Origin: Bacillus rhizoplanae
GTDB taxonomy: Bacteria; Bacillota; Bacilli; Bacillales; Bacillaceae_G
Direction: 5' to 3'
DNA: 64,000 nucleotides
Assembly (NCBI RefSeq): GCF_917563915.1
Contig: NZ_CAKJTI010000013.1
Location: forward strand, 1 to 64,000
Within the stretch, counting starts at the first letter, position 1. Every line of letters begins with the position of its first letter. The notes below the pieces were generated by a model. It had not been told where the DNA came from and made no database searches. It worked only from the letters and a program-made list of their open reading frames with translations. Made by a program: the position numbers and the translations under genes. Below, one piece after another: positions 7,455-63,327 of this stretch.

Positions 7455-7799
7455 ATGATTGGAAAAAATATTTATCGATTTCGAAAAAATAGGGGACTTA
7501 CTTTATCTGAACTAGCAGAAAGGGCTGGAATTTCCAAATCTTATTTAAGCAATATTGAAAGAAATATAAATCAAAACCCGTCTATCCAAGTGATGGAAAA
7601 GATAGCATTGGTATTGGAGGCAGATCTCAATACATTACTCGAAACAAAAATAAATGTGGAAAAGAAACAGCAGATTGAAAGAGAGTGGATTGATTTTGTT
7701 TATGAATTAAAAAAAGCAGGGGTTGATAAAGAGGAGCTTCGGGAATATAAAATTTTAATAGATTTCATTAAATGGCAGAATTCAGGAGTAAACAAGTAA
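7455..7799 (+). CDS. SinR-like biofilm master regulator paralogue
   Basis: 114 residues with a strong ribosome binding site (AAGGAGG). Residues 1-65 are an HTH_3 domain (IYRFRKNRGLTLSELAERAGISKSYLSNIERN) with the SinR signature SKSYLSNIERN...NPSIQ. Residues about 78-107 (REWIDFVYELKKAGVDKEELREY) are the SinI/SinR interaction helices, so it can probably tetramerise and bind a SinI-type antagonist. SinR in Bacillus represses matrix genes. No sinI is next to it, and the sequence differs from canonical SinR, so I read it as a paralogue devoted to local genes. Four GTTC-N8-GAAC palindromes between 11726 and 14025 are its obvious candidate operators. Confidence 0.85.
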   Translation: MIGKNIYRFRKNRGLTLSELAERAGISKSYLSNIERNINQNPSIQVMEKIALVLEADLNTLLETKINVEKKQQIEREWIDFVYELKKAGVDKEELREYKILIDFIKWQNSGVNK

Positions 7800-8197
7800 G
7801 GGAAGTTTTCGTTATTATTACGGATTTTATGTTATGTAGTGTGCTGCAAAACTTATCTCCATATAGAAATTGCAGGCTTCCCCTTATGACAACCCGAATT
7901 TCTTATCCGCCTAAACGTGTCTTACTAAAGTTGTTTCATTATGTTGACAGTAGCACTCTGCCTGTTTTTTTACTTCTATCTTTTTAGATTGAATATGGTG
8001 AATTTTACTTCATGTAAAATTGTAAGCGTTTTTTTATTGTTAACCTTACCAGTAATACCCCACCTCAGAATTCGGAAGAAAGTAAAGAAGTTAGGTGGGG
8101 AATAAACTGCTGGCATGTACCTGATTGGGCTGATTTTAATTCCTAAAGGATGAACCTCCGCTGATGAAAGTTTTATTTTTATAAAATAGAGTTTTTA
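7800..8197. other. Intergenic region, no convincing gene
   Basis: This 398-base stretch holds an open frame from 7772 that overlaps the SinR-like gene and has no ribosome binding site; I reject it. The right half is a degenerate bcr1-like repeat. Nothing else was seen. Confidence 0.5.
8048..8176 (+). repeat. Degenerate bcr1-like repeat
   Basis: It shares the paired blocks CCCCACCT and AGGTGGGG, the linker with AAGTAAAGAAG, and a 3' part ending CTGATGAAAGTTTTATTTT with the better copy at 11311-11468, but with many substitutions and a deleted inner hairpin. Confidence 0.65.
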
Positions 8198-9334
8198 TTA
8201 CTTTTCGCTTTTCTGGCGACGTAATATTGTGTGTAAAAAGTTATCTCCCCTCTTTTTATATAACCTTACATATTCAAAGAAAAGGTGCCTCTCCGTACTA
8301 TTTGATTCCAATTCGAAAGAGAGTTCTATTTTAGAAGGCAGTATCCAGCTGTATATGGCTATCAGACAATGTTCGATTGTATCAAAATCTAAAAAGTTGA
8401 AGTAAGCAAAATTGATGTATTGTTTAAATGATTTAAAATCCCTGTCTCTGATTGCTTTGTATTCCCACCACAAGTTGTCTCTTCTTTTGGAAGGGAGCTG
8501 TTTTACATTTTCTAATTGTGGAAACAAATTATAGACAATCGCTAAAGTTCTAATAATTCTCTTTAAAGTTTTGTGAGAAGCTGCTTCTTTAAATAAAACA
8601 GCATAATCTAGTTTGTCATGTAACACGTATATCATTTGAATCATATCTATAAAATACTTCAAAGAATTCAAATTGTGCTTCCAGCCATGGAGGCAAATCA
8701 TATAAAAGGTATGGTAATCAGATAGTTCTTTTATATGATTATACGGTTTTAAAGATTTTGCTTGGTTCCAAAATTCTTCTATTTGAAGATTAGATGTGTT
8801 TTCTTTTAATAGATCCCAATGTATTTCAACAGTTAGCGGAATTGTTGAGCCAGGCAATACCTTACTAAGGCTACAATGGAAATGAGAAGGGATATATTCT
8901 TCTTCAACTGTAAACCCTAGTGATTTTATGCAATCAATCGCTTTATTTAGATTGTGTGCCTTGATTAACAAATCAATATCTGATGTAGATCTAGCGCCTA
9001 TGTGACCAAAATATTTTTCAGCAAATACCACACCTTTAAGTGGAATAACATCAACTCCAATATCCTCAAATTTGTTTAGGATTTGTTCTGTTTGATTTTT
9101 AATGAATAAATTTAGGTATAATGATTCGTTGTATTTTTGAGTTAACTGTTCTTGGAAAAAGAGAGGTGTTTGATGAAATATCTCCTGTTGTTTTAATAAA
9201 TAATAAATTTGGGAGTGAATTTCAAAAAACTCAATATCCCCCATGGCTTGTTTATAAAATTCTTCGTCAGTTGGTACAGGAATTTGTGGATTATATAATG
9301 CTTGTATTAAATGAACAATCAAGGGTTTCAGCAC
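8198..9334 (-). CDS. Nucleotidyltransferase-family protein of the RiPP-like locus
   Basis: 378 residues. It belongs to the uncharacterised nucleotidyltransferase family (PF14907 type). The N-terminal half is helical, then IPLKGVVFAEKYFGHIGARSTSDIDLLI carries the G-S/T-D-x-D core of the Pol-beta-like fold, followed by VEIHWDL, the third acidic strand. The same family occurs in the lasso cluster at 18027-19214. In phosphorylated lasso systems such proteins act after the kinase, on the phosphate group; that is my recollection of the family and the activity here is inferred. It is 25 bases downstream of the exporter, in one minus-strand unit. Confidence 0.82.
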   Translation of the reverse strand: MLKPLIVHLIQALYNPQIPVPTDEEFYKQAMGDIEFFEIHSQIYYLLKQQEIFHQTPLFFQEQLTQKYNESLYLNLFIKNQTEQILNKFEDIGVDVIPLKGVVFAEKYFGHIGARSTSDIDLLIKAHNLNKAIDCIKSLGFTVEEEYIPSHFHCSLSKVLPGSTIPLTVEIHWDLLKENTSNLQIEEFWNQAKSLKPYNHIKELSDYHTFYMICLHGWKHNLNSLKYFIDMIQMIYVLHDKLDYAVLFKEAASHKTLKRIIRTLAIVYNLFPQLENVKQLPSKRRDNLWWEYKAIRDRDFKSFKQYINFAYFNFLDFDTIEHCLIAIYSWILPSKIELSFELESNSTERHLFFEYVRLYKKRGDNFLHTILRRQKSEK

Positions 9335-9359
9335 CTTTCTACATTAGGTCAATGTCAAT

Positions 9360-11186
9360 TTAAGCATTTAAAGTTATAGCATTGTTTTCTTTTGATTGTT
9401 GAGAAACTTGCATATGATATAAGTTACGATACAATCCGTCTTTTACTACGAGTTCCTCATGGCATCCTGTTTGCACAATTTTTCCCTCATCCATTACAAT
9501 AATGAAATCTGCATTCTGAATCGTTGATAATCGGTGTGCGATGACAAGTGTCGTTCGATTCATCATTAATCGATCTAAAGCTGTTTGTACTTGCTGTTCA
9601 GTTTTGCTGTCTAGTGCAGATGTCGCCTCATCTAACAAGAGAATAGGTGCATTTTTTAATATGGCTCTTGCTATGGCAATTCGCTGTTTTTGTCCCCCGG
9701 ACAGTTTTATACCTCTTTCGCCAATTTCTGTGTCATATCCATTCGGCAGAGATAGAATAAACTCATTGATATTAGCGGCCTTTGCAGAATCGATCATTTC
9801 CTCCTCTGTAATAGTAGTACCTGGACGTGCTAATAGAAGGTTTTCCCTTATTGTTCCTCCGAAAAGGAAGGTTTCCTGAGGAACATGGGCAATTGAACTT
9901 CTTAGTTCAGAAGGAGAGAGGTTTTCAATTGCTATATCATCAATCAAAATGCAGCCAGATTGCGGTTTATAAAAACCTTGCAGTAAATTAAATAGAGTTG
10001 TTTTCCCTGCACCGCTTAAACCAACAATTGCAGTTACTTTCCCTGCGTGAATCTGTAAATTAAAATGATTCAATATTTTTTGTTGTTCATCGTAGCTAAA
10101 CGTGATGTTTTGGAACTGGATTGACTTTACCACTGGTTTAGCTGGGGAATAGGTTGCTACATCCGTAGATTCAGTTGGTAATTCCAAAATCTTTAGGAGC
10201 CTTTCTACTGCTGTAATTGATCTTTGAAAGCCTGCCCATTGACCTGCTAGTCCTGTTAACGGATATACTAAATGATTAACTAGATTGATAAAGGTTAATA
10301 ACGAGCCTACTGACATGACTCCATCTGAAACAAAATATGCGCCTAAACAGAGACTGATAAGAAATGTGAAGGAGCTTACAGCTTGTCCGCCTGCATAAAA
10401 CCATCCACCTAGTTTTGTGTTATCTAATTCTAGAGAATATAGCTGTTGATTTTGCTTGGTGAATTTTTCATATAGCAATTTTTCCATTGTAAACGAACGA
10501 ATCACAGAGAAGCCAAGAAAAGTTTCGTTAAGCAGGTTATTCATAGTACCTAGTAGGCTATGTATGAGTCGACTATTTCGCCGAAGTAGTAGGCCGAAAA
10601 CGACACCTGATAGTGCTGCGAGAGGCGCAACTAATATACTTAATAAAGCTAATTTCCAATTGATATAAACTAAATAAATAAAAACAGTAATATAAATAAG
10701 AGGAAGTCTAATTAAGTTAATAAGACTCCTTCCTATAACGCCATTAATATTATGAATATCATTAGTAAAGTGAGATAATAATTCTCCTGAACGGAGGTTA
10801 GAAACATCTTTGGCAGGGAGCAGTAATATATGTTTAAATAACTGTTTTTTTAAATCTCTTTTCACACCGTTTGTTGCAACAGATTCGAAGTAAGTATCAA
10901 AAAAACTTGATGTAATACTCATGAATGTTAGGATACATGCTAGCGGAACTAGCCATTTTATACGCTGAAAGTCGCTTCTTACAGCTGCGTCCAAAATATT
11001 TCCAAAGAGCCAAGCGAACGTTAAAGTAAGGAAGATATCAATAAATAGCAAGAAAAGGAGAACCATATACGCTATGCGATGTCTCATAATATAAGGCCTT
11101 AATAAGGAAAAGGTTTTTTGTATGTCTTCCATTGTAAAGTATTGTTTCATTGTATTTAGTATCGCCTGTTTTTTTCGTCCGATCAT
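9360..11186 (-). CDS. ABC exporter, fused membrane and ATPase domains
   Basis: 608 residues. The first 320 form a six-helix exporter membrane domain, and the rest an ATPase domain with Walker A GLSGAGKTT, Q-loop VPQETFLFGG, signature KLSGGQKQR, Walker B ILLLDEATSALD and switch His in VIAHRLST. All catalytic residues are intact, so it probably acts as a homodimer. No N-terminal C39 peptidase domain is present, so the leader must be removed by another enzyme. The ATG at 11186 follows AGGGGTT. The order precursor, exporter, nucleotidyltransferase suggests that it exports the product of the gene at 11472-11690. Confidence 0.92.
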   Translation of the reverse strand: MIGRKKQAILNTMKQYFTMEDIQKTFSLLRPYIMRHRIAYMVLLFLLFIDIFLTLTFAWLFGNILDAAVRSDFQRIKWLVPLACILTFMSITSSFFDTYFESVATNGVKRDLKKQLFKHILLLPAKDVSNLRSGELLSHFTNDIHNINGVIGRSLINLIRLPLIYITVFIYLVYINWKLALLSILVAPLAALSGVVFGLLLRRNSRLIHSLLGTMNNLLNETFLGFSVIRSFTMEKLLYEKFTKQNQQLYSLELDNTKLGGWFYAGGQAVSSFTFLISLCLGAYFVSDGVMSVGSLLTFINLVNHLVYPLTGLAGQWAGFQRSITAVERLLKILELPTESTDVATYSPAKPVVKSIQFQNITFSYDEQQKILNHFNLQIHAGKVTAIVGLSGAGKTTLFNLLQGFYKPQSGCILIDDIAIENLSPSELRSSIAHVPQETFLFGGTIRENLLLARPGTTITEEEMIDSAKAANINEFILSLPNGYDTEIGERGIKLSGGQKQRIAIARAILKNAPILLLDEATSALDSKTEQQVQTALDRLMMNRTTLVIAHRLSTIQNADFIIVMDEGKIVQTGCHEELVVKDGLYRNLYHMQVSQQSKENNAITLNA

Positions 11187-11310
11187 ATGAACCCCTAATT
11201 TTATATTTTTTCTTTTTTATATATTCTCTGTCATAGATATGAAAGCTGATAGTGTTTGTGCCAGAGAATTCAATTGTAAAGGTAACAACGAACACTCTGG
11301 CAGACATGTA

Positions 11311-11468
11311 TTTATCCCGCATTAACGGGCAGTAAGCCCCCCACCTCAAGATTCAGAGAGAAGCAAAGAAGATAGGTGGGGGATAACTGCCTGTAAAAAC
11401 TCGATTGGTTCAACTAGCCGTCAGTGGGGGATGAAAAAAACTCCCCACTGACGGAAGTTTCACTTTAT
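11311..11468 (+). repeat. bcr1-like repeat, well preserved
   Basis: About 148 bases bounded by TTTAT on both sides (11311-11315 and 11464-11468). It starts with the hairpin CCCGCATTAACGGGC, then a CCCCCACCT ... AGGTGGGGG pair, then the 3' part with ACTGACGGAAGTTTCACTTTA. This is the architecture of the bcr1 element of the B. cereus group. It lies three bases beyond the stop codon of the minus-strand precursor gene, between it and the exporter gene, so any read-through transcript carries its hairpins. Confidence 0.85.
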
Positions 11469-11471
11469 TAT

Positions 11472-11690
11472 TTAATTGCCTTTTCCACCGCCATGGCCAC
11501 CGCCGTTCCCAGGACGCGGACCTGTGTATGGAGGGTTTGGATAGTGTATTCCTCCATTTCCGTGTCCTGGGTGATCTACATTACCATGCCCTTTGTTCCA
11601 GCTTTGGGCGGTTTCAAAGCGAATAGGTTGAGTGCTTAATACCATAGGACGAGTATAGGATTTTTTTCTATTTTGATTCTCTGTCTTCAT
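11472..11690 (-). CDS. Gly/His/Asn-rich putative RiPP precursor
   Basis: 72 residues from the ATG at 11690, preceded by AGGGGG; the longer frame up to 11822 has no ribosome binding site. The leader-like part (1-32) contains Y12-x-x-P15, the spacing that PqqD-like RRE proteins recognise in lasso leaders, and ends QPIRFETAQSWN. The rest (33-72) is Gly, His, Asn and Pro rich (GHGNVDHPGHGNGG, GNGGGHGGGKGN) with no Cys. Hydroxyl residues after position 30 are only Y50, Y55 and T56, and the only acid is D39. It heads a minus-strand unit with an exporter and diverges from kinase, RRE and peptidase genes, the layout of a modified-peptide locus. No lasso ring acceptor is positioned 7-9 residues from a likely cleavage site. 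Confidence 0.72.
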   Translation of the reverse strand: MKTENQNRKKSYTRPMVLSTQPIRFETAQSWNKGHGNVDHPGHGNGGIHYPNPPYTGPRPGNGGGHGGGKGN

Positions 11691-11725
11691 CGTTTTACCC
11701 CCTAAAATAAAATGTAGCGCTTGTT

Positions 11726-11741
11726 GTTCATTATAAAGAAC
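11726..11741. promoter_or_regulatory. SinR-type operator, GTTC-N8-GAAC
   Basis: GTTCATTATAAAGAAC, a perfect palindrome in its outer four bases, 36-51 bases upstream of the precursor start on the minus strand. The B. subtilis eps operator recognised by SinR has the same GTTC-N8-GAAC form. A SinR paralogue is encoded about 4 kb away. Confidence 0.65.
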
Positions 11742-11869
11742 GCGCGATGCGAAGTAAAGATACATAAAATGATATTTTCTGAATTTTTTATTATATTGAT
11801 AAGTAATTATTTCCCATATCAAGGTTGTCAGGAATCAAAGGAAATATATGTGGAATAGATACTACTGGA

Positions 11870-11939
11870 ATGTACTGCTTTGTCATACTTTCCATCAATG
11901 AGGATGAAAAACCACCCACTGATGGAAATTTCATTTTAT
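11870..11939 (+). repeat. Fragment of a bcr1-like repeat (3' part)
   Basis: Matches the 3' third of the copy at 11311-11468: a GATGAAAAACCACCCACTGA block followed by GGAAATTTCATTTTAT. The 5' hairpins are missing. Confidence 0.55.
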
Positions 11940-12192
11940 ACTTGTATTTCATTACTGCAAAATAGAGAATTTATTCGTGGTGCTAGATTAAAAAAAGAAA
12001 TGAAGGGACTAAAGAAAGGGTACAGACCATATGGGAATTTTGTAAGTTTCTAAGTTGAAAAGAGTAAGGGATAGCAAAGAATGTTTCAGTAGCTATATCT
12101 ATTTTGAATCATATAAAAATATATTTACAAACAGAATATCAGTGTTTAAAATGAAAATAAATTCATTATATAGAACAAATTAGGGTTAAATA

Positions 12193-12208
12193 GTTCATTT
12201 TAAAGAAT
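12193..12208. promoter_or_regulatory. Degenerate SinR-type site
   Basis: GTTCATTTTAAAGAAT matches GTTC-N8-GAAC at seven of eight fixed bases and lies 77-92 bases upstream of the kinase gene. It is a weaker candidate than the four perfect sites. Confidence 0.35.
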
Positions 12209-12284
12209 TTTATGTAAGGTTTTATTAAAGGAATTTAAATTTTGTTACACACAGAAACCAATATGAAATATAGGAGTTCATGCT

Positions 12285-13079
12285 ATGGAAAATATATTAG
12301 TTCAAATAGGAGAACATATAGTTTCAATCTATTCTACATCTGAAAAGTTAATGGATTGGATAAAAACACATTTTCAAATTGCTGAAGGAAATCATGTTGC
12401 AAAAATTAACTCACCAAATTTATCTATTCGTATTGAAGACAATTATGGAGTTTCTTTTGTGGATTATAATGTAGAAATCTGTTCCGATTCAGACAAGATT
12501 ACGTACCAACGTGCTGATTATCTCATAGATGTTAACAGTACATATAATGAAGCAACGATTTTGGTTTATGATGAACTAGCTTTAAAACACGCTTTACATA
12601 ATCTATATAGCGCTTTTATCGTCCATAATCGTTGGGGACTGTTAATTCATTCATCTTGTGTGGATCATCAAGGAAAAGCTTATTTATTTAGTGGTCAATC
12701 GGGAGCAGGTAAATCGACAGTTGCTAAGTTATCAGCCCCTAGACCGCTTTTATCTGATGAAGCCACTATTGTGAAAATAGATGAGAATGAAATTAAAGTG
12801 TTTGATTCTCCATTTCGAAGTGAATTAACGACATCTTATGTTCATCAATCTTGTCATCTTTCGTCAATTTATCTTCTAATTCAATCGTTGGATGTGAAAG
12901 CTTTACCAGTGAAAAAGTCAGACGCTATGTTAGGAATAATGGATAAAATTTTTTATTGGCACCATGACTCTTTAGAAACAGCAAAACTATTGGATATGTG
13001 TAAACAATTAATAGAAAAAATTCCAGTTTACAATATGTATTTTCAAAAAAATGATAGCTTTTGGGAGATGATATCATGA
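12285..13079 (+). CDS. HPr-kinase-like peptide kinase of the RiPP-like locus
   Basis: 264 residues. After an N-terminal region without obvious motifs comes the HprK fold: H122 in LIHSSCVDHQG, Walker A SGQSGAGKST (about 136-145), then LLSDEATIV, the acidic pair that binds metal. It lacks the N-terminal DRTGG domain of true HPr kinase/phosphorylase, as do lasso-peptide kinases such as PadeK. Those phosphorylate a hydroxyl on the precursor. Here the putative precursor has no C-terminal Ser, so the acceptor is uncertain. The stop codon overlaps the start of the RRE gene (ATGA), so the pair is translationally coupled. Confidence 0.85.
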   Translation: MENILVQIGEHIVSIYSTSEKLMDWIKTHFQIAEGNHVAKINSPNLSIRIEDNYGVSFVDYNVEICSDSDKITYQRADYLIDVNSTYNEATILVYDELALKHALHNLYSAFIVHNRWGLLIHSSCVDHQGKAYLFSGQSGAGKSTVAKLSAPRPLLSDEATIVKIDENEIKVFDSPFRSELTTSYVHQSCHLSSIYLLIQSLDVKALPVKKSDAMLGIMDKIFYWHHDSLETAKLLDMCKQLIEKIPVYNMYFQKNDSFWEMIS

Positions 13080-13348
13080 ATCTAAAATACGAATGTACAA
13101 AAAACATAAATATTGTAGAAATTGATAATGAGTGGATTGTCATGGATACAGAAAATTTTACGGTAACAAAAGTAAATGCTATCGGTGCTTATATTCTAGA
13201 GGAAGTAAGAGGACAAAGAGAGCTTGAAGACATCATTTGTAATATTGCAGATAACTACGATGTTGATTTAAATACAGCAAGATCAGATGCATTGGTTTTT
13301 CTAGAAGAATTAAAAGGGATAGGTTTAATCCAGGATGAAAGAGCATAG
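13076..13348 (+). CDS. PqqD-like RiPP recognition element protein
   Basis: 90 residues from the ATG at 13076, which overlaps the kinase stop codon; an in-frame start at 13061 lies inside the kinase gene. The sequence has the PqqD fold pattern: a beta hairpin (EWIVMDTENFTVTKVNAIGAYIL) followed by helices (LEDIICNIADNYDVD, ARSDALVFLEELKGIGLI). Such proteins bind the leader of a precursor and present it to tailoring enzymes. The likely leader carries a Y-x-x-P motif (precursor at 11472-11690). Its end overlaps the next gene by 14 bases. Confidence 0.88.
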   Translation: MNLKYECTKNINIVEIDNEWIVMDTENFTVTKVNAIGAYILEEVRGQRELEDIICNIADNYDVDLNTARSDALVFLEELKGIGLIQDERA

Positions 13349-13805
13349 CCTTCCAGTTTCAGGTATAAAATATTTGCTTCAAAAGCAAGGATGGGTTGAT
13401 ATTCCTTCCTCTGGAGTCAGCATGTATCCTCTGATTAAAGAGGGGGATATTTGTAGGTTTATCCCCTTAGGTAGTAATGAAACATTAAAAAAAGGTGAAG
13501 TTTTATTATTCGTATCGAATCAAGGGCAGTTAATAGGACACAGATATTATTATAATTTTGTGGAAAACGGTGTGATTTATTATGTATGTAAGGGAGATAC
13601 GAATGTTTCTGTTGACTCCCCTATAAAAAAATCTCAATTAATAGGGAAATTAGTTTGCATTAAAAAAAAGAAATTTCAACTGAATTCCCAAGGTTTCATA
13701 GTTCAATTATGGGGAGGTATTGTCTTAACCTTCCCTAGTTTGCCAAGGGGTTGTAAAAAATATCTTGACTTACGGACAAGATTGAGGATATGGAGCAAAT
13801 ATTAA
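13335..13805 (+). CDS. S24/S26 peptidase, SipW-like (Ser-His type)
   Basis: 156 residues. S29 in SSGVSMYPLIKEGD is the nucleophile position. H69 in LIGHRYYYN replaces the lysine of ordinary bacterial signal peptidases, as in SipW and ER-type enzymes. KGDTNVSVDSP (D88, D94) is the third conserved box. There is no N-terminal membrane anchor; a hydrophobic stretch near 121-136 may associate with membrane. It overlaps the RRE gene and ends the plus-strand unit. Because the exporter has no peptidase domain and no lasso-type B2 protease is present, this is the best candidate for leader removal (inference). It could instead be a free signal peptidase homologue. Confidence 0.8.
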   Translation: MKEHSLPVSGIKYLLQKQGWVDIPSSGVSMYPLIKEGDICRFIPLGSNETLKKGEVLLFVSNQGQLIGHRYYYNFVENGVIYYVCKGDTNVSVDSPIKKSQLIGKLVCIKKKKFQLNSQGFIVQLWGGIVLTFPSLPRGCKKYLDLRTRLRIWSKY

Positions 13806-14121: not shown

Positions 14122-16059
14122 ATGAGTGCTATAACAGGGATTTTACATTTTAATGATGAGCCTATATCGATTGAGCACGGTACAAGATTAATGAAGGATT
14201 TGCAAAAATATCCTGCTGATGATGTTCAAATATGGCACAAAGATAACGTCTTCCTCGGTTGTCACGCACAATGGATTACACCAGAGTCCATTGGTGAACA
14301 AATGCCTTTTTATGATTACGAAAGACAATTAGCGATTACAGCAGATGCCATTATTGATAATCGTGATGAGTTATTTGAAAGGCTACAAGTGGAATACGCC
14401 GATAGAAAAAGGATGACAGACAGCGAATTAATCTTGCTCTCCTATCAAAAGTGGGGAGAAGAAACTCCTAAGTATTTAGTAGGCGATTTTGCTTTTATGA
14501 TTTGGGATGAGAGAAACCAGAAACTGTTTGGAGCAAGGGACTTTTCTGGGAGTCGGACTCTTTATTTTTATCGTGGCCAGCAACGGTTTGCTTTTTGTAC
14601 GATTATAAAGCCATTATTTACTTTACCATATATCGAGAAGGCGCTGAACGAGCAATGGCTTGCTGAATTTTTAGCTATACCAGTGAATTTCGAATCGGTA
14701 GATCCTTCTTTAACAGTTTATAAACATATAGAACAGGTACCTCCTTCGCATATTATCTCGGTGAAGGACGGCAGAGTAACACTTTTGAGATATTACACAC
14801 CGATTGCTGGAGAAATGCTTCGGCTCAAGTCAAATGAAGAATATGAAGAAGCATTTCGGGAGGTATATCAAAGTGCGGTAAAGGCGCGTTTACGCACTCA
14901 CCATCAAGTAGGAGCTCATTTGAGCGGAGGACTGGATTCAGGTTCTGTTGTTAGCTTTGCTTCAGGAGATTTGCGCAAGGAGAATAAGAAATTACATACG
15001 TTTAGTTATATCCCGGTAGAGGGCTTTGTAGATTGGACACATAAAGGTAGAGTAGCTGATGAAAGACCTTTTATTCAATCGACTGTACAGCATGTTGGAA
15101 ATATAAAGGATCACTATTTGGATTTTGCAGGAAGAAGTCCCTTATCAGAAGTTGATGATTGGCTTGAAACATTAGAGATGCCATATAAATTTTTTGAGAA
15201 TACTTTTTGGTTGAAGGGGGTTTATGAAGAAGCGCATCAGCAAGGAATAGGTGTACTTCTGAGTGGACAAAGAGGTAATTGGACAGTATCATGGGGCCCT
15301 GTTTTAGACTATCAAGCTATGCTTTTGAAAAGGCTGCGTTGGATTCGCTTTTTCCGTGAGCTGCATTTATATAGTAGAAACATAGGGGTAAAAAAATCGA
15401 GAGTCTTCGCAGTAGTAAGAAAAAAGGCATTTCCATTTTTAAATCAGGTATTTTCATCTGAAGAACAAAGCCTTTTTCCCGTAATAATCAACCCAGAATT
15501 TGCAAAAAAAATGAATGTTTTAGATAAACTCAAAGAGCATGATATCGATATCACTGGTTCCTCTATTTCAACTGCATATGATATGAAAAAGCAACAGTTT
15601 GAGCAATTGTATTATTGGAGTATAAATGGGACGTATGGAACGAAATTATCTCTACGTTACTCTTTATGGGATCGTGACCCAACGAATGATTTACGAATGA
15701 TTCAATTTTGTTTATCAGTTCCGGAAGAGCAATATGTCCAAAATGGTTTAGATCGGGCGCTTATTCGAAGAGCAACAAAAAACTATCTGCCTGATAAGGT
15801 TAGGTTAAACCAACGGGTTCGAGGTGTTCAGGGGGCAGACGGAGTGTATCGTATGACTCCTGCTTGGAATAAATTTATTGAGGAACTTCAACAGCTTAGC
15901 ACAGATCCTATAATCTCTGAATTTCTAAATGTAGAAGTAATTAAAGCAGCAATTTTAAAGATTCGAGAGGAACCGCGGCCAGAATATGCATTTGATTTAG
16001 ATTTTAGAATTTTAATGCGTAGTCTAATCGTTCATCGGTTTATAAAAAATTTTACCTGA
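14122..16059 (+). CDS. Lasso peptide cyclase (asparagine-synthetase-like, C protein)
   Basis: 645 residues; the ATG follows GGGAGG. The N-terminal part (1-200) is a glutamine-amidotransferase-like domain, but residue 2 is Ser, not the catalytic Cys, as in lasso cyclases. The C-terminal part has the ATP pyrophosphatase loop SGGLDS at 268-273. The enzyme adenylates an Asp or Glu side chain and closes a macrolactam with the peptide N-terminus. The precursor gene starts 14 bases downstream, followed by kinase, RRE and protease genes, which fixes the role. Size is usual for lasso C proteins. Confidence 0.93.
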   Translation: MSAITGILHFNDEPISIEHGTRLMKDLQKYPADDVQIWHKDNVFLGCHAQWITPESIGEQMPFYDYERQLAITADAIIDNRDELFERLQVEYADRKRMTDSELILLSYQKWGEETPKYLVGDFAFMIWDERNQKLFGARDFSGSRTLYFYRGQQRFAFCTIIKPLFTLPYIEKALNEQWLAEFLAIPVNFESVDPSLTVYKHIEQVPPSHIISVKDGRVTLLRYYTPIAGEMLRLKSNEEYEEAFREVYQSAVKARLRTHHQVGAHLSGGLDSGSVVSFASGDLRKENKKLHTFSYIPVEGFVDWTHKGRVADERPFIQSTVQHVGNIKDHYLDFAGRSPLSEVDDWLETLEMPYKFFENTFWLKGVYEEAHQQGIGVLLSGQRGNWTVSWGPVLDYQAMLLKRLRWIRFFRELHLYSRNIGVKKSRVFAVVRKKAFPFLNQVFSSEEQSLFPVIINPEFAKKMNVLDKLKEHDIDITGSSISTAYDMKKQQFEQLYYWSINGTYGTKLSLRYSLWDRDPTNDLRMIQFCLSVPEEQYVQNGLDRALIRRATKNYLPDKVRLNQRVRGVQGADGVYRMTPAWNKFIEELQQLSTDPIISEFLNVEVIKAAILKIREEPRPEYAFDLDFRILMRSLIVHRFIKNFT

Positions 16060-16073
16060 AAGGGGGTGATATC

Positions 16074-16199
16074 ATGAAAAAAGAGTGGCAAAAACCAGTA
16101 CTAGAAGTGCTTGATATGAACATGACCATGGCTGGACCTGGACATAAAACTCCTGACGCTGTTCAACCTGATCCGGATGATCCTGTGAAGTATAGCTAA
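16074..16199 (+). CDS. Paeninodin-family lasso peptide precursor
   Basis: 41 residues, strong ribosome binding site AAAGGGGGTGAT. The leader (1-19) starts MKKEWQKPVLEVLDMNMTM and has Thr at position -2, the conserved lasso cleavage feature. The predicted core is 22 residues, AGPGHKTPD followed by AVQPDPDDPVKYS. Asp9 of the core can close a nine-residue ring with Ala1, exactly as in paeninodin (AGPGTSTPD ring). The last residue is Ser, the position phosphorylated by the cluster kinase in that family. Too short for routine gene calling. The leader uses W-x-K-P rather than the Y-x-x-P form. Confidence 0.93.
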   Translation: MKKEWQKPVLEVLDMNMTMAGPGHKTPDAVQPDPDDPVKYS

Positions 16200-16214
16200 A
16201 TTATGAAAAATTTT

Positions 16215-16251
16215 AAAGCCCTTATATAGCTTGAAACCATATAAGGGCTTT
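16215..16251 (+). terminator. Hairpin between precursor and kinase genes
   Basis: AAAGCCCTTATAT pairs with ATATAAGGGCTTT around an 11-base loop, followed by only a few T residues. It probably acts as a partial terminator or RNA stabiliser so that precursor mRNA exceeds enzyme mRNA. Confidence 0.75.
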
Positions 16252-16283
16252 AAAAATAATTTTGTTGAAAATGTGGAGTGAGC

Positions 16284-17219
16284 ATGATGATAAATACCGT
16301 AAGAAATGTGGCATATAAAGCTTTCGGATTAAGAATAGTAAGCGAAATTCCTCTACCAGAATTACCTCAAATGAGTGAACAGAAGGATATGGCAGATATC
16401 ACAATTGAAATTGCCGATTTATCTGGACAATGGCGTAAATATACTGCTGAGCAACAACAAAGGTTTGTTGTTGAAGAAAATGTAGTGATGTTTCGGGTCC
16501 CTCATACTGCTATATTTTCTATACAAGAAGGAAAAAAAATTATTTTTTCACCTATGCCAGGGGTGGAAGAAGATAAAATACGGCTTTATATTCTTGGAAC
16601 TTGTATGGGAGCGTTATTAATACAGAGAAAAATACTCCCATTACATGGAAGTGCGATAGCCATTGATGGAAAGGCTTATGCTTTGGTAGGTGATTCAGGG
16701 GCTGGAAAATCAACGCTTGCTTCAGCATTTTTGTGTAAAGGATATCAACTTTTAAGTGATGATGTGATTGCTGTGTCTCTTTCATATGAAAATTCTCCAC
16801 TTGTTATGCCATCTTATCCGCAGCAAAAGTTATGGCAGGAAAGCTTAAATGGGCTTGGAATGGAAACAACACTCTATCGCCCGTTGTTTGAAAGAGAAAC
16901 GAAGTATGCTGTACCTGTATCTTCCCAATTTTTTGCTGATCCATTGCCTCTCGCAGGTGTGATTGAACTAGTTAAAACGGAGAATGAAAGCATTGAAATT
17001 CTTCGAACAGAAGGACTTGAGCGTTTGCACACCTTATTTCGGCATACATTTCGCAACTTTTTAATCCCACGTTTAGGATTGATGGAATGGCATTTTGCAA
17101 ATTCTGCAAATATGGTAAATAAAATTGATATGTTCCAATTACAACGTCCGACTTCAAGATTTACAGCTCACGAACTTGTGTCTCTCATTTTAAGTTCTTT
17201 AAATAAAGGAGGAATATAG
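16284..17219 (+). CDS. Lasso peptide kinase (HPr-kinase-like, PadeK type)
   Basis: 311 residues from the ATG at 16284, preceded by GGAG; the GTG at 16278 overlaps that site. An N-terminal region of about 110 residues is followed by PLHGSAIAIDG, Walker A GDSGAGKST (from about 136) and LLSDDVIAV. PadeK-type enzymes phosphorylate the C-terminal Ser of the lasso precursor, and the precursor here ends in Ser. The second HPr-kinase-like gene in the window (12285-13079) is shorter and diverged (DE in place of DD). Ends directly against the RRE gene. Confidence 0.9.
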   Translation: MMINTVRNVAYKAFGLRIVSEIPLPELPQMSEQKDMADITIEIADLSGQWRKYTAEQQQRFVVEENVVMFRVPHTAIFSIQEGKKIIFSPMPGVEEDKIRLYILGTCMGALLIQRKILPLHGSAIAIDGKAYALVGDSGAGKSTLASAFLCKGYQLLSDDVIAVSLSYENSPLVMPSYPQQKLWQESLNGLGMETTLYRPLFERETKYAVPVSSQFFADPLPLAGVIELVKTENESIEILRTEGLERLHTLFRHTFRNFLIPRLGLMEWHFANSANMVNKIDMFQLQRPTSRFTAHELVSLILSSLNKGGI

Positions 17220-17513
17220 ATGATTAATGCTCAAAAGATTTCCTTAGAGTGCCAGGTTGTACAAAGTAAAGGAAACATCGTAAGCGATATGGATGGAGAA
17301 AAAGTAATGTTGAATGTTCAAAAAGGAAAGTACTACAATTTGGGTGAAATGGGAGGAGAAATATGGGATCTTATTGAAGAGCCAATCACGGTTGCTCGGT
17401 TGGTTACTACGTTAATATCCAATTATAATGTAGAACGAATAGAGTGTGAAGAACAAGTTCTTTCCTTTTTAGAACTTTTATTCAAAGAGAATTTAATTCA
17501 TATTGAAGATTAG
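17220..17513 (+). CDS. Lasso leader-binding protein (B1, PqqD-like RRE)
   Basis: 97 residues, starting at the base after the kinase stop codon, with AAGGAGG upstream. It shows the PqqD fold: strands around GEKVMLNVQKGKYYNLGEMGGEIWDLI and helices ARLVTTLISNYNV and EEQVLSFLELLFKENLI. It binds the precursor leader and delivers it to the B2 protease and the cyclase. It is the counterpart of the protein at 13076-13348, with about the same size and fold but clearly different sequence. Confidence 0.92.
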   Translation: MINAQKISLECQVVQSKGNIVSDMDGEKVMLNVQKGKYYNLGEMGGEIWDLIEEPITVARLVTTLISNYNVERIECEEQVLSFLELLFKENLIHIED

Positions 17514-17551
17514 TTTTATATCTTTTTACTAGATTTGTTAGGAAGGGATTC

Positions 17552-18034
17552 ATGAACATTGTGAAAAAGTTAAGAATATTTTTATCGTTGAATACGAAAA
17601 CAAAGCTTTTATTTTTAGAGGCTTTTATTTTTTTAGGATGGGCTCGTGTTCTTAAAAGTATACCATTTTCTAAAGTTGCACCTTCTTTAGGCGATCACAT
17701 GAATGAAACACCTTTTACTCACATTCAGTTACACAGAGAGGTATTAAAGAATGTGTCTCATGCCATACATATTATGAGCCGTTATACGTTTTGGGAAAGC
17801 CAATGCCTTGTTAAGGCGATAGCTGGGATGAAGATGCTCGAGAAACGTCAAATTGAAAGTACTCTTTATTTAGGAACCGCTAAGGATGATAATGAAAAAT
17901 TGATTGCGCATGCATGGTTACGTAGCGGTCCTTTTTATGTTACTGGATCGGAAGGAATGGAGAAATTTACTGTCGTTGGAAAATTTGCAAAGAGGATAAG
18001 CGAGGAAACTACTAAAGGAGAATACAATGAGTAA
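17552..18034 (+). CDS. Lasso leader peptidase (B2, transglutaminase-like)
   Basis: 160 residues; ATG after GGAAGGGATTC. The catalytic Cys is C85 in FWESQCLVKAIAGMKML and the His is H120 in LIAHAWLRSGPFYV, the C...H arrangement of lasso B2 proteases. It cuts the leader from the precursor after the residue following the conserved Thr. The last eight bases overlap the nucleotidyltransferase gene. Length is typical of stand-alone B2 proteins. Confidence 0.92.
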   Translation: MNIVKKLRIFLSLNTKTKLLFLEAFIFLGWARVLKSIPFSKVAPSLGDHMNETPFTHIQLHREVLKNVSHAIHIMSRYTFWESQCLVKAIAGMKMLEKRQIESTLYLGTAKDDNEKLIAHAWLRSGPFYVTGSEGMEKFTVVGKFAKRISEETTKGEYNE

Positions 18035-19214
18035 TGATTTTAGTATCGATGTGGAATTTATGTCTAAGGAATTAAAATTCTTGCTTGAAGTTTTGAAATT
18101 GAAAGATGACGATGCCATGCCAGTGAACAGCAATAAATGGTTTATAGACATTGATTGGAATAAATTTCTTGAACTAGTAATGCATCATCGCGTCTATTCA
18201 TTTATTTATTCAAAGGTGAAAAAGATAGATGAAAAATTGATTCCTTCACATGTTGTTCAAACTCTGTATCGATTGTTTAAAAAAAATACGTTTCAAATGC
18301 TGCATTTAAGTGCTGAAATGGAACAAGTAAGTAAACTGTTTACCGAAAATGAGATTCGTACCCTTTTTTTAAAAGGACCAGTGCTTGCTTATGATCTTTA
18401 CGGAGATATCTCTTTGCGGACATCCTGTGATTTGGATATTCTGATTCCTATTCATAAGCTAGAAGAAGCGGAAAGCCTTCTTTTAGAGCAGGGCTACGTG
18501 AAAGATGATTATATTCAAACGATATTAAATGACTGGAAATGGAGACATCATCATATAACATTTTTCCATCCTCAAAAGAAAATCAAACTTGAAATTCATT
18601 GGAGGCTAAATCCTGGTCCTGGAAAGGAACCAAGTTTTGAGAAACTGTGGGAACAAAAACGAAAAAGCCCGCTTACGAGTTATCCTGTGTACTTATTAGG
18701 AAGTGAGGACTTGTTTCTATTTCTTGTTTCTCATGGAGCACGTCATGGATGGTCTAGACTGCGTTGGTTAGTAGATATAAACCAAATGGTAAAGCAAGGG
18801 CTCGATTGGAAAGAAGTTAAAAAGTTATTCGAAAAATATCAATGTGGGCATGTAGGAGGACAAGCACTAATTCTATCTGCTGAGCTTTTAAATGCAACAA
18901 TCCCTGAAGAAATGAAAGTGTTGACAGAACAGAGGCGGTCCAGACAATTGGCGCAAGATGCGCTATTTTATATTAAACAAATGATAAATCTGCATACAGA
19001 TCCTGTTCCAGATGAAGTAGCTGCGTATCACAGTCGACATTTATTTTCATTAATGTCAAATCGACAAAAGTTTTTATTTATTATGAGTTATCTTTATCCT
19101 TATCCCATTGACGCTAAAACGTTACCACTACCTAAACCCCTTCACTTTTTGTATTTTCCTTTACGTCCTTTTTTATGCTTCTGGAGGAAAACAAGGAAAC
19201 ACGCTTTAACATAA
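18027..19214 (+). CDS. Nucleotidyltransferase-family tailoring protein of the lasso cluster
   Basis: 395 residues, same family as the protein at 8198-9334 (PF14907 type). The core is TLFLKGPVLAYDLYGDISLRTSCDLDILIP with the D-x-D pair, then KLEIHWRLN. Genes of this family recur in phosphorylated lasso clusters, and I recall a report that the pseudomycoidin homologue decorates the phosphate with hexoses; the reaction here is inferred. The start overlaps the end of the protease gene, so the two are probably coupled. Confidence 0.85.
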   Translation: MSNDFSIDVEFMSKELKFLLEVLKLKDDDAMPVNSNKWFIDIDWNKFLELVMHHRVYSFIYSKVKKIDEKLIPSHVVQTLYRLFKKNTFQMLHLSAEMEQVSKLFTENEIRTLFLKGPVLAYDLYGDISLRTSCDLDILIPIHKLEEAESLLLEQGYVKDDYIQTILNDWKWRHHHITFFHPQKKIKLEIHWRLNPGPGKEPSFEKLWEQKRKSPLTSYPVYLLGSEDLFLFLVSHGARHGWSRLRWLVDINQMVKQGLDWKEVKKLFEKYQCGHVGGQALILSAELLNATIPEEMKVLTEQRRSRQLAQDALFYIKQMINLHTDPVPDEVAAYHSRHLFSLMSNRQKFLFIMSYLYPYPIDAKTLPLPKPLHFLYFPLRPFLCFWRKTRKHALT

Positions 19215-19225
19215 GGGGGATAAAA

Positions 19226-21028
19226 ATGAAACATATTTTATATTTTATGAAGCAATTGCAGTCTTTTTCAGGAAGAATTCTTTATGTGAATCTTTTTGGA
19301 ATGGTTTTGATTAGTTTGCTTGAAGGTATAGGGCTTCTTTTATTAATTCCTATGATAAGCATGAGTGGAATTGTCAATATGGGGGGGGAGGATTCTCCCA
19401 TTTCGTTTATTTTTAAATTTTTGCAGGAAGTTCCTAAGGCAACTAGTTTATCTTTTATTCTAGGTATATACATTTTAGTAGTCGTTAGTCAAAACCTTTT
19501 ACAAAGAAATTTAACCATTCGAGATGTGAAAATTCAACAAGGCTTTACTCGGCAGTTAAGATTGGACATTTATAGTGCTATTTTGCAGGTGAAGTGGAGT
19601 TTTTTTCTAGAAAAAAGGAAAACTGATCTTATAAATACATTAACTTCAGAATTAGCACGTGTTAGCTATGGGATTAATCTTGTTTTGCAGCTTTTAGCTT
19701 CTATCGTTTTTACCTTCATGCAGATTTGCATTGCTTTCTGGTTATCTATTCAAATAACTATATTTGTTTTATTTTGTGGTTTGTTCTTTTCAATCGTTTC
19801 TCGTATTTTCATTAAAAAAGCTAGAATACTAGGGAGCAAAACATCTGAGTTAGCACAAAGTTATCTTTCAGGTATAACAGACCATTTTAATGGGATTAAA
19901 GATATAAAAAGTAATACTTTAGAAGGATCACAGTTAATATGGTTGCGCTCCTTAACGAGAAAAATGACTGACGAACAAATTGAATACATGGAAATAAGGT
20001 CAGCTTCTCAGCTTTTTTATAAAATTTCATTGGCTGTTCTAATTGTAGTTTTTATTTTTTTATCTGTGACGTTGTTTCATGCCCAATCAGAGCAACTATT
20101 GTTAATAGTTCTTATTTTCTCTAGACTATGGCCGCGATTTACAAGCATTCAGTCTAACCTAGAACAACTTGCTGCAAGTATTCCCGCTTTTAAGTCTTTA
20201 ATAGAATTGCAGGAGGAATGCAAGGAAGCAGCGGAATTGCAAGATATAGAACAATGCTATAAATGTGTAAAACCAATGTCTATAGAAAAAGGGATTGAAT
20301 GCCGGAACGTATATTTCCGTTACAATCAAAAAGAATCCTTATATGCTCTTCAAAATGTTAACTTACAAATTCCATCTAATTGTATGACAGCTATTGTCGG
20401 ACGTTCGGGTGCTGGAAAAAGTACATTGATTGATATTTTAATGGGACTCATGCAGCCGGAAAAAGGACAAGTATTAATAGATAGTACTCCTCTTACAAGT
20501 GATAATTTATTGTCATTAAGAAGGTCCATTAGCTATGTACCGCAGGATCCATTTCTATTTAATGCAAGTATAAGAGAAAATTTGCTAATGATTGAACCGG
20601 ATGCAAGTGAAGAACAAATTTGGGAGGCGTTGGAGTTTTCAGCAGCAGCTGAATTTGTTAGGAGGCTTCCGCAAGGGCTTGATACACTCATTGGAGATCG
20701 TGGAGTTAGGCTTTCTGGAGGAGAACGGCAACGACTTGTGCTAGCGCGGGCTATTTTACGAAAACCTTCGATTCTCGTTTTAGATGAGGCTACTAGTGCT
20801 CTAGATACGGAAAATGAAGCGAAAATTCAAGCTGCACTAGAAAGGTTAAAGGGAACGATGACTATTATCGTTATTGCCCATCGGTTATCAACGATTCGCA
20901 ATGCTGACCAGGTGATTGTATTAGACAAGGGAGAAATCGTTCAAAAAGGGGCATTTCACCAATTAGCAAAAGAAAAAAGAGGTATGTTTAGTAAACTGTT
21001 AGGAACTCAAGTAGAAGTTAGTGTCTAA
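19226..21028 (+). CDS. Lasso peptide ABC exporter
   Basis: 600 residues from the ATG at 19226, which follows AAGGGGGAT; an in-frame start at 19175 lies inside the preceding gene. A membrane domain of about 330 residues is followed by an ATPase domain with Walker A GRSGAGKST, VPQDPFLFN, signature RLSGGERQR, ILVLDEATSALD and VIAHRLST. Exports and confers self-protection against the lasso peptide in related systems. Last gene of the cluster. It differs in the membrane domain from the exporter at 9360-11186. Confidence 0.93.
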   Translation: MKHILYFMKQLQSFSGRILYVNLFGMVLISLLEGIGLLLLIPMISMSGIVNMGGEDSPISFIFKFLQEVPKATSLSFILGIYILVVVSQNLLQRNLTIRDVKIQQGFTRQLRLDIYSAILQVKWSFFLEKRKTDLINTLTSELARVSYGINLVLQLLASIVFTFMQICIAFWLSIQITIFVLFCGLFFSIVSRIFIKKARILGSKTSELAQSYLSGITDHFNGIKDIKSNTLEGSQLIWLRSLTRKMTDEQIEYMEIRSASQLFYKISLAVLIVVFIFLSVTLFHAQSEQLLLIVLIFSRLWPRFTSIQSNLEQLAASIPAFKSLIELQEECKEAAELQDIEQCYKCVKPMSIEKGIECRNVYFRYNQKESLYALQNVNLQIPSNCMTAIVGRSGAGKSTLIDILMGLMQPEKGQVLIDSTPLTSDNLLSLRRSISYVPQDPFLFNASIRENLLMIEPDASEEQIWEALEFSAAAEFVRRLPQGLDTLIGDRGVRLSGGERQRLVLARAILRKPSILVLDEATSALDTENEAKIQAALERLKGTMTIIVIAHRLSTIRNADQVIVLDKGEIVQKGAFHQLAKEKRGMFSKLLGTQVEVSV

Positions 21029-32804: not shown

Positions 32805-32960
32805 ACTACCCCCACCTAAAATCCTAACGGATTTTTGAGGAAGGAGATTCCCCAAAAGGACAACTAAGACAAAATGCTTAGCAGACCATACCCATTCAAC
32901 AAGGTATGGTTTTTCTGCTTTCAAACTTAGACAAACCTTTTACTTCCAAGTCTGTAAGAG
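32805..32960 (-). ncRNA. Candidate omega (guide) RNA scaffold at the tnpB 3' end
   Basis: TnpB guide RNAs run from the 3' end of tnpB through the right end, and the next bases outside the element act as the guide. Here this stretch holds two hairpins on the minus strand: AAACCATACC...GGTATGGT around plus 32890-32914, and CCTCAAAAATCC...GGATTTTAGG around plus 32815-32840. The 5' boundary is a guess. The guide would correspond to the complement of plus 32785-32800. Confidence 0.45.
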
Positions 32961-34602
32961 CCCCTGGAGGAAAAAGTTCGTTCACAGAACGAATCTTGTT
33001 ATGGTTCGAAAGCTCCATCTGATAGAATGTGTGAACACGCAAATCAGACAGGATGCCAGACAGCCACTTCCATTGCGCCCAATGATGCAGACCTACCATC
33101 TTCTCCGGTAATAGTGAATACAAAATTGGTGGAAGTTTTTCTTTAAATCCCATTGCTCTTCTAGCAATGACATAAGAAGCTGTTTGGTGAATGCTGATAC
33201 CAAAACGTTTCATATATTTGATTTTACCGATTTGAGAAGTGTACGCTGGATTTACCTCAAATACTGCTACACCCATCTTCTCAGCACGGCCTTTAATAGC
33301 TAAAATCATCTTTTTATAAGCAAACATGCTCATCATCATGTTTGCTTTTTTGTTACCATAAGGGTTCTTAACCTTTGCTTTTGTTGTGTTTAATTTTTCT
33401 ACAACAATCGGTTTGTTTGCTTTTACAGCAATATCAACTAATGCAATGGCTTCTGCTTCAATAATTTTAGTAATTTGTTCTGATGTTTTACTTAAAATAT
33501 CAAAGGATAATACGCCCGTTTTTATGAGTTGTCCTTGTTTATTGATGTTTGACCAAGCAAAGTGGTCAAAATTACAATCTACTCCAATAACACCATCGGA
33601 TTTGCTGAAGTTTTTATTTTGCTTCTCTTCAATATCTATTAAACATTTAAAAATGTAGTAATCCCCGTGGTCTTCAATTGCCCAACTGATTGGTTTTCCT
33701 GCATTCTTTTTATCTTTGCAATTCCATTGGTTTTGAACAGCTAGAGTCACTTGTTCTTGTCCATACGGAAATGTAAGGTTCGGAATTTCAACTGCAACAC
33801 CGTTTGGGGTTGTAAAGTGTAAAGATTGTGATTCTGTATTGTATGTAAATACAAAGTTTCCTGATTTCGCGTCTTTTCGGCCTGAAATCAACATTTGATT
33901 GTAACGAGCCTGTTCAAAATCCTGAACCCAAAGTGTATGATTTTGAACATAAGTATCTACAGTATGTTGTGCTTTGAATCGTTTTTTACTCCCAAATACA
34001 ACAGAAGAAACTTTGTTTTTTAAACTATGAAGTAGTTTTTGTAGTCTATCCAGCCGAAATTCCAGGCTACCTAAACGAGAACGAAGTGTTTGAATACGTA
34101 CATTTAAATATTCATGCTCAAATTGATAGGCATGATAGTAAATATCTGTTCTCTTTTTAAATTGCACAACAAAATATCGTCCCATTTGTTGTTCTTTGGA
34201 CGTTTTATTGAACTTTGGTTTTCCTTTGATAAAAGATGTTTTAATTTTATTCAGCACTGTCAAATCTGACTTGGTTTTCTTAATCTTCTTTTTTACAGCA
34301 TTAATCTGTTCGTTTTTATTTTCGATATACAATTTCTTCAATTCTGTCTGAGAAGAAGACAGTGCATTGGCTTCCTGCACAGCACTATTTGCATAATAGT
34401 CATTCAGACTAAATCGTGATTTTATAGTAATTTGCATACTATCAGAACGTCTGGAGGTGCCAGAACGTTTCTCTAACACTTGCGTTTGAAAAGTAAAATG
34501 CTTCGCACGATTAAATACGAAAAGAGCATGTCCAATAGCTTCAACATACTTCGGATTCAGTGCATTCTTATAGATACGAATTGAAAAATATGCTTTTTTC
34601 AT
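32896..34602 (-). CDS. TnpB-related RNA-guided nuclease family protein
   Basis: 568 residues from the ATG at 34602, preceded by AAGGGAG; the longer frame to 34635 lacks a site. N-terminal OrfB/HTH-like region, then RuvC-like motifs: GVDCNFDHFAW (first Asp), VVEKLNTTKAK (Glu) and NPAYTSQIGKIKY. The usual C-terminal zinc finger Cys pairs are absent and the third motif reads ISIHQTASYVIARRAMG, with His where a catalytic Asp is expected. Size exceeds a typical 400-residue TnpB. It may be an inactive or divergent subfamily. The reading frame is intact. Confidence 0.82.
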   Translation of the reverse strand: MKKAYFSIRIYKNALNPKYVEAIGHALFVFNRAKHFTFQTQVLEKRSGTSRRSDSMQITIKSRFSLNDYYANSAVQEANALSSSQTELKKLYIENKNEQINAVKKKIKKTKSDLTVLNKIKTSFIKGKPKFNKTSKEQQMGRYFVVQFKKRTDIYYHAYQFEHEYLNVRIQTLRSRLGSLEFRLDRLQKLLHSLKNKVSSVVFGSKKRFKAQHTVDTYVQNHTLWVQDFEQARYNQMLISGRKDAKSGNFVFTYNTESQSLHFTTPNGVAVEIPNLTFPYGQEQVTLAVQNQWNCKDKKNAGKPISWAIEDHGDYYIFKCLIDIEEKQNKNFSKSDGVIGVDCNFDHFAWSNINKQGQLIKTGVLSFDILSKTSEQITKIIEAEAIALVDIAVKANKPIVVEKLNTTKAKVKNPYGNKKANMMMSMFAYKKMILAIKGRAEKMGVAVFEVNPAYTSQIGKIKYMKRFGISIHQTASYVIARRAMGFKEKLPPILYSLLPEKMVGLHHWAQWKWLSGILSDLRVHTFYQMELSNHNKIRSVNELFPPGALTDLEVKGLSKFESRKTIPC

Positions 34603-34698
34603 TGAACACGCTCCCTTCTTGTTTTGTATACACAAAGTATACCAAAAAGGAACATATGTTTCTATTTATATGTTTAAAAAAACAAAAATGCGATTCAT

Positions 34699-49258: not shown

Positions 49259-49762
49259 TCTATTTTATTAGTAACTATGTTCCAAAACGAACAAATATAG
49301 CTAGATGGAAGTATACAAAATTAAAAATGTAGGGTCAACTGAAAGAAAAGTTTGACATTTTATAGAATAATAATAAAAGTATGATATTTATGCATAATGA
49401 TGAAAAAAAGGGGATATATTGCTTAAGAATATAAGAGGAATATGAATATAATTTTCATTGTAAAAAAATATTTTATAATAATAAATGAAGTGAAATATAT
49501 AAATCCAAATTAAAGAAACGACCTAAAAATCTCTTTCTTTTTAGGTGGGCGAGAGCATCTAATGCATAGTAGCGAAAAGCGAAGAAGATAGGTGGGGGAT
49601 GAAGCCACCCACTGATGGAAGTTTCACTTTAATAAACAAAGCAAATATCAATATTACGAATAGAATTTTACGATATTCATAGTGATAATAGTAAGTTCAT
49701 GAATTTTTCATGGTATTCGCTGTGAATTTTGCTACAATAAATGAGAAGAGAGGAGGCGGAAT
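49259..49762. other. Intergenic region with a repeat fragment
   Basis: AT-rich 504-base stretch without a credible gene. It contains a bcr1-like fragment (49536-49633) and, just before ccdA, a promoter-like region ending in GAGAGGAGGCGG. Confidence 0.5.
49536..49633 (+). repeat. bcr1-like repeat, rearranged fragment
   Basis: AAAAGCGAAGAAGATAGGTG followed by GGGGATGAAGCCACCCACTG and ATGGAAGTTTCACTTTA match the better copies, but the first hairpin is missing. Confidence 0.65.
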
Positions 49763-63215: not shown

Positions 63216-63221
63216 TTGAAC

Positions 63222-63319: not shown

Positions 63320-63327
63320 TTTGTTGT

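Follow-up and report, generated by a model that had tools for sequence, protein, structure and literature searches.

Linear Polyphosphorylated Peptides (LPPs) are a class of ribosomally synthesized and post-translationally modified peptides (RiPPs) whose genes, lppA, lppK, lppB, lppS, lppD and lppN, were described by Popov et al. (Nat Commun, 20 May 2026; PMC13381572). According to the main text of that paper, the precursor carries the motif YxxPxVLxHQxIxFETxxS, an HprK-like kinase adds several phosphates to Ser3 of the core, the RiPP recognition element (RRE) is a discrete protein, LppB, with residues N33 and D70, and a SipW-like peptidase, LppS (S29/H68/D93, F42), cleaves behind the Thr of FET, for which it requires the RRE. 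An MsbA-like exporter belongs to the gene set, and deletion of lppN, which encodes a PF14907-type NTP transferase, caused no detectable change in a heterologous host. RRE binding, Ser3 phosphorylation, FET presentation and core release were established experimentally with the homologues of Paenibacillus alginolyticus, and LPP clusters often adjoin paeninodin-type lasso clusters within polysaccharide loci. Here we describe six intact open reading frames (ORFs) at positions 8198-13805 of a 64,000-nucleotide stretch of Bacillus rhizoplanae (NZ_CAKJTI010000013.1; the whole stretch is called the window), which very probably form an LPP cluster and thus belong to a class already published. The genes of the locus and the parts of its precursor are the following:

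8198..9334, minus strand: lppN, PF14907 nucleotidyltransferase-like protein (PF14907 1.1e-35, above cut-off; DxD motif formed by D119/D121)
9360..11186, minus strand: lppD, ATP-binding cassette (ABC) exporter of 608 aa (PF00664 1.2e-43 and PF00005 1.7e-33, above cut-off)
11472..11690, minus strand: lppA, precursor of 72 aa (ATG at 11690; YTRP leader, GHGN/GGGHGGG tail)
11610-11690, minus strand: lppA leader, 27 aa ending IRFET, matching 9x8z_A
11475-11609, minus strand: lppA core, 45 aa starting AQSWNKGHGN (core start A-Q-S)
11601-11603, minus strand: codon of the predicted phospho-acceptor Ser3 of the lppA core
12285..13079, plus strand: lppK, HprK-like kinase (P-loop GQSGAGKST, with a D158-E159 pair downstream)
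13076..13348, plus strand: lppB, discrete RRE, PqqD-like (PF05402 5.5e-14, above cut-off)
13335..13805, plus strand: lppS, SipW/archaeal-type signal peptidase I-like leader peptidase (catalytic S29, H69 and D94; F42)

The window locus has every LPP-defining sequence feature that was tested, namely the leader, Ser3, the N33/D70 pair of the RRE, the peptidase residues, and the kinase, nucleotidyltransferase and exporter. Residues 4-27 of the lppA leader match the crystallised LppA leader (9x8z_A) through the FET site with an E value of 1.7e-4, and the leader as a whole, YTRPMVLSTQPIRFETAQS, agrees with the published motif apart from one position. The window RRE matches crystallised LppB (9x8z_B, E 8.8e-8), and the aligned equivalents of N33 and D70 are retained. 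In lppD the permease and the ATPase are fused in a single chain that matches MsbA models at 7.2e-136, under their cut-offs, and no peptidase domain was matched in the domain search of the 608-aa protein. The genes lppK, lppB and lppS overlap end to start, the ATG of lppB at 13076 overlapping the lppK stop. Genes, motifs, catalytic residues and homology are in this way directly visible in the window locus.

The same gene set recurs in other genomes. Related loci were collected by kinase homology (n=64; 65 loci with the window), and at E up to 1e-10 kinase relatives were found in 7/398 genomes of the class, in 5/41, 15/80 and 40/295 genomes of three families, and in 1/3 and 2/15 of two further, smaller genome sets. 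A scan of genome contigs with the kinase gave one locus, L001 of Ammoniphilus sp. YIM 78166, in which the order is nucleotidyltransferase-kinase-RRE-peptidase-exporter and a short ORF carries the same leader motif; the corresponding scan of viral contigs gave 0 relatives, and plasmid searches with the K-B-S DNA, the kinase and the precursor gave no match. Within 6 kb of the kinase, the 64 loci contain an RRE in 63 cases, the peptidase in 59, the exporter in 61 and the nucleotidyltransferase in 56, no RRE being found at locus L104. The catalytic positions are strongly conserved: D119 and D121 of lppN are present in 56/56 homologues, S29/H69/D94 of lppS in 59/59 and F42 in 58/59, and across the 64 relatives K143 of lppK is kept in 63, D158 in 62 and E159 in all 64.

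Moreover, of 10,205 short ORFs in the 65 loci, 26 carry the leader motif in its strict form, whereas 100 residue shuffles gave 0.0 on average, so that gene set and leader motif co-occur beyond chance, and a phmmer search with the window precursor retrieved 21 related ORFs in other loci (E < 1e-3). A motif search assigned a precursor in 58 of the 65 loci. The matches at L015 and L118 do not resemble leaders and were discarded as chance ORFs, which leaves 56; the seven loci in which the search assigned none are L090, L023, L098, L106, L108, L111 and L119, and at L111 a Tyr leader sits in a longer ORF that the overlap filter removed. A precursor thus stands beside the enzymes in 56/65 loci, window included, while a reading made earlier from the DNA letters alone (the sequence-only reading) was to be given up if it were not conserved there, and an unrelated structural protein was rejected as the identity of lppA, since the leader is kept beside the enzymes in relatives. 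The cores attached to these leaders vary widely, with Ser/Thr/Cys repeats, Cys-bearing and proline-rich examples; the list of 68 cores retains the chance motif matches L069_8336, L083_7522 and L105_5984. Two loci carry FET leaders with Ser/Thr/Gly/Cys-rich repeat cores at or near a second RRE (L021, 18426-18815; L024, 3988-4257), and at position 10550 of L017 a precursor-like ORF of 179 aa carries FEH where FET would stand and a long core of Ser/Thr/Asp/Gly repeats, the RRE there having Glu at position 70.

Some observations weigh against the assignment to the LPP class. Both lppK and lppS fall below curated family cut-offs: lppK has only sub-cut-off matches, to ScmC (1.2e-9) and HprK_rel_A (8.9e-8), and reaches no Pfam family at its cut-off, while lppS matches TIGR02228, the archaeal-type signal peptidase I model, at 4.2e-11 with 42.9 bits against a cut-off of 51.85, and SipW at 2.2e-8, also sub-cut-off. 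The two genes were named from these matches together with their conserved catalytic residues or P-loop, and a search of solved-structure sequences with both proteins returned chance-level matches only. The window leader has Thr for His in VLxHQ, its one departure from the consensus, and of the 62 loci with an exporter found, the window is the only one in which exporter and kinase point away from each other (the exporter counted for L080 is that of the L080 lasso cluster). Finally, the main text of PMC13381572 reports that no LPP product was observed from any native host.

The sequence-only reading had proposed an undescribed RiPP system, to be abandoned if an earlier paper on the exact class existed. 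The class is described in PMC13381572, so the claim of novelty fails and an undescribed class is rejected. Much else in that proposal held. All six ORFs of the one divergent locus at 8198..13805 are present and its anatomy was correctly drawn, as was the 72-residue precursor at 11472-11690 with its Y-x-x-P motif, here YTRP, and its GHGN/GGGHGGG tail. A single RiPP system with a YxxP leader read by an RRE and a SipW-like leader peptidase, and a linear, probably phosphorylated product, had also been predicted, and in experiments the P. alginolyticus homologues were found to work in this way (PMC13381572). The product may in addition be nucleotidylated or glycosylated, as that reading suggested; deletion of lppN had no detectable effect in the heterologous host of PMC13381572. 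The window peptide itself is not the P. alginolyticus peptide, since the calculated average [M+H]+ is 4467.6 for its unmodified core and 7734.4 for its precursor with Met kept, and the masses given there are 4516 and 7808, respectively. In NCBIfam, window lppA has no match at E up to 1, NF033524 included, and none of the 8 LPP precursors checked has a model, with a single chance match at 0.13.

Metal binding by the Gly/His-rich core had been suggested as well, and a core acting as a metallophore, with phosphorylation secondary, would be in keeping with the five His in 45 residues and the GGGHGGG tail. The conservation of these residues argues otherwise. In 16 relatives with a core of this type, His8 is kept in 5, His13 in 11, His22 in 3, and His16 and His39 in 0; other LPP cores have no His or consist of Ser/Thr/Cys-rich repeats, and no gene for metal uptake could be recognised among those of the locus. 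Metal binding is thus unsupported because the core His residues are poorly conserved, and the metallophore, which we consider very improbable, was rejected on this ground. The comparison argues against a shared metal function of the Gly/His tail, and it leaves room for one of the single conserved His.

The window differs from the published construct in the arrangement of its genes, with N-D-A on the minus strand and K-B-S on the plus strand, so that the order A-K-B-S-D-N is not found; the main text of PMC13381572 presents that order as the putative operon of the P. alginolyticus construct and not as a definition of the class. The precursor also faces away from the kinase at L083, L084 and L104 (that of L069 being a chance ORF). 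Copies of a palindromic repeat are dispersed between genes of the window (8058-8105, 11310-11460, 11902-11939, 49571-49634, 60448-60483, 62584-62657 and 63207-63320), and the first three of them flank the inverted genes; the repeat at 11320-11395 folds well as RNA (z -4.5), and 0 Rfam families were found over the window. Terminator-like sites number 6, compared with 3.9 in shuffles, and no promoter is claimed because the 26 promoter-like sites are fewer than the shuffle mean of 31.6. The flanking repeats, together with an exporter orientation unique among 62 loci, could mean that the split, inverted cluster is a rearranged one that no longer works. We consider this unlikely, as the six frames are open, the catalytic residues are intact, and the precursor appears maintained, having kept its leader, FET and Ser3. 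The window adds to the LPP class a distinct member of split arrangement, in a stretch that also bears a lasso system.

This lasso system is a complete paeninodin-type cluster at 14122-21028, starting about 0.3 kb downstream of the LPP genes:

14122..16059, plus strand: Asn-synthetase-like cyclase (PF00733 1.6e-23)
16074..16199, plus strand: paeninodin-family precursor with a WQKP leader (NF033524 2.3e-19, above cut-off)
16278..17219, plus strand: HprK-like kinase (HprK_rel_A 1.5e-10, below cut-off)
17220..17513, plus strand: B1 RRE (NF033536 1.4e-40, above cut-off; 9x90_B, E 8.3e-34)
17552..18034, plus strand: B2 leader peptidase (NF033537 1.1e-30, above cut-off; PF13471 5e-19)
18027..19214, plus strand: PF14907 nucleotidyltransferase (PF14907 3.4e-60)
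19175..21028, plus strand: ABC exporter (motifs by eye and homology to exporters of other loci)

The sequence-only reading had stated that lasso genes are absent, which is right within 8198-13805 and wrong beyond it, and its locus boundaries ended before the adjoining cluster, which belongs to the usual setting of LPP loci. With a cyclase, a B1 and a B2 next to it, and with an aromatic-xxP motif in both leaders, the Gly/His-rich precursor might be taken for a second substrate of the lasso cluster, ending as a lasso peptide. Closure of a lasso ring takes an Asp or Glu at core position 7-9. The lppA core, AQSWNKGHGNVD, has neither residue at positions 7-9, its first acid being D12, and its leader has Tyr and not the paeninodin-type Trp. 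Aligned to PbaB1 (9x90_B), the window B1 has Gly and Gln at the G42 and Q79 positions, residues that in the main text of PMC13381572 accompany the exclusion of Tyr leaders, and in 37/42 Tyr-leader relatives the fetched stretch showed no lasso gene. A second lasso substrate is hardly credible on these grounds, and a lasso product for lppA was ruled out by the core without an acid at 7-9 and by the Tyr leader. Assignment of lppA to an LPP pathway agrees with the distribution of leaders and RREs: the residues of the two window RREs and their leaders place the LPP pair in the Tyr type and the lasso pair in the Trp type, which is what the published discrimination model expects, and WxxP is present in 7/7 lasso precursors detected next to LPP genes. 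By analogy with that model, the two systems would run in parallel, separated by a leader/RRE code of Tyr with Asn33/Asp70 on one side and Trp with Gly42/Gln79 on the other.

Leader variants among the relatives are the part most worth following. Position P-3 holds E, D, V, N, S or K and not Tyr in 14 of the 56 loci with an assigned leader (L018 and L067-L079; L069 was scored as Tyr-less although a Tyr stands one place later). RRE residue D70 is lost in 7 of these 14 (to E, N, S or H), compared with 1/41 Tyr-bearing loci with an RRE, and L017 has a Tyr leader without D70 (E). The table [[40,1],[7,7]] gives a Fisher value of 1.2e-4 with kinship ignored, and [[40,1],[8,8]] with 6e-5 if L015 and L118 are kept as Tyr-less; the RREs of L015 (E), L023 (E) and L090 (N) also have no Asp70 and stand outside the first table. 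All 14 Tyr-less loci group in a single fork of the kinase tree, with a Shimodaira-Hasegawa-like approximate likelihood ratio test (SH-aLRT) support of 82, under the 95 mark. The D70 losses are not independent events because the Tyr-less loci are one clade, and an independent-pair test of Tyr and D70, with 2-3 pairs only, showed nothing. At most one loss of Tyr, followed by changes at D70, would account for the pattern, with 7/14 Tyr-less loci still keeping D70.

Lasso genes were found in the fetched stretch of 12/14 Tyr-less loci, compared with 5/42 Tyr-bearing ones, and since L068 and L071 lie at contig ends, the missing lasso genes there say little. It may be that the LPP leader lost its aromatic knob wherever an LPP and a lasso cluster are carried jointly, and that it is bound by its RRE through another grip, so that the absence of the knob, and not Tyr versus Trp, keeps the two systems separate, a tentative reading to which we give somewhat less than even weight. 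If it were true, the published Tyr/Trp code would not be the whole code. At the window locus Tyr and D70 are both retained, a pairing that looks ancestral.

In a second group, FGT (VEFGT) replaces FET and Ser stands at core position 4. This group comprises 12 loci (L085, L086, L088, L089, L091-L096, L099 and L101), which fall in a kinase clade of 14 rows with support of 100, two of the rows having no assigned precursor; the loci mostly have longer exporters, and often two or three consecutive precursors. The search motif of PMC13381572, Px9Fx[T/A], would admit FGT, and the string FGT is absent from the main text of that paper, in which, supplements aside, neither the Tyr-less nor the FGT group is mentioned. 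Leaders without Tyr whose RREs have a changed D70, and FGT leaders with Ser4, are naturally occurring leader/RRE pairs with which one can test how sibling pathways keep their precursors apart.

Upstream of the locus lie ORFs that we take, by eye, to be surface-polysaccharide genes, including a sugar transferase, an acetyltransferase and an aminotransferase. One regulator gene is also found there:

7455-7799, upstream of the LPP genes: helix-turn-helix (HTH) regulator (HTH_3 7.5e-15)

Short HTH regulators, SinR-like by eye, stand alike beside the LPP loci of the window (7455-7799) and of L001 (8295-8633). Elsewhere in the window, a 579-aa ORF at 32896-34635 resembles a transposon protein by eye, and Pfam gives no match for it at E up to 0.01.

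Carried over from P. alginolyticus, the mechanism in B. rhizoplanae would begin with LppB, the RRE, gripping the YTRP of the leader, while LppK, the HprK-like kinase, would put one or more phosphates on Ser3 of the core. The RRE would then offer the FET site to LppS, the Ser/His/Asp peptidase, which would cut after the Thr and release the 45-residue core for presumed export by LppD. LppN and the nearby polysaccharide genes may attach a further group, and LppN may act on the phosphate. Phosphorylation, cleavage and export by the window locus are thus predicted by analogy.

Among known systems, the LPP cluster of P. alginolyticus DSM5050 (PMC13381572; PDB 9x8z) is the closest to the window locus. 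As far as the main text describes it, the two share the six functions, the leader motif, FET and Ser3, a precursor of 27+45 residues, the N33/D70 pair of the RRE, a Ser/His/Asp peptidase, and the setting, with an adjoining paeninodin-type lasso cluster and polysaccharide-type genes nearby, whereas the window has divergent genes, a different core and Thr for His in the leader. SipW-type signal peptidases of Bacilli are related to window lppS, which matches both the SipW and the archaeal-type signal peptidase I models, but it lies below both cut-offs, and the LPP-type enzyme cuts an RRE-bound leader and not a secretion signal (PMC13381572). Paeninodin-type lasso clusters (NF033524/NF033536/NF033537; PbaB1, PDB 9x90) have in common with the LPP locus an HprK-like kinase, a discrete RRE, a PF14907 protein, an exporter and an aromatic-xxP leader. 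In the LPP locus, on the other hand, cyclase and B2 are missing and a signal-peptidase-like enzyme is used, and its precursor differs in having a core without an acid at 7-9 and a YTRP leader in place of WxxP.

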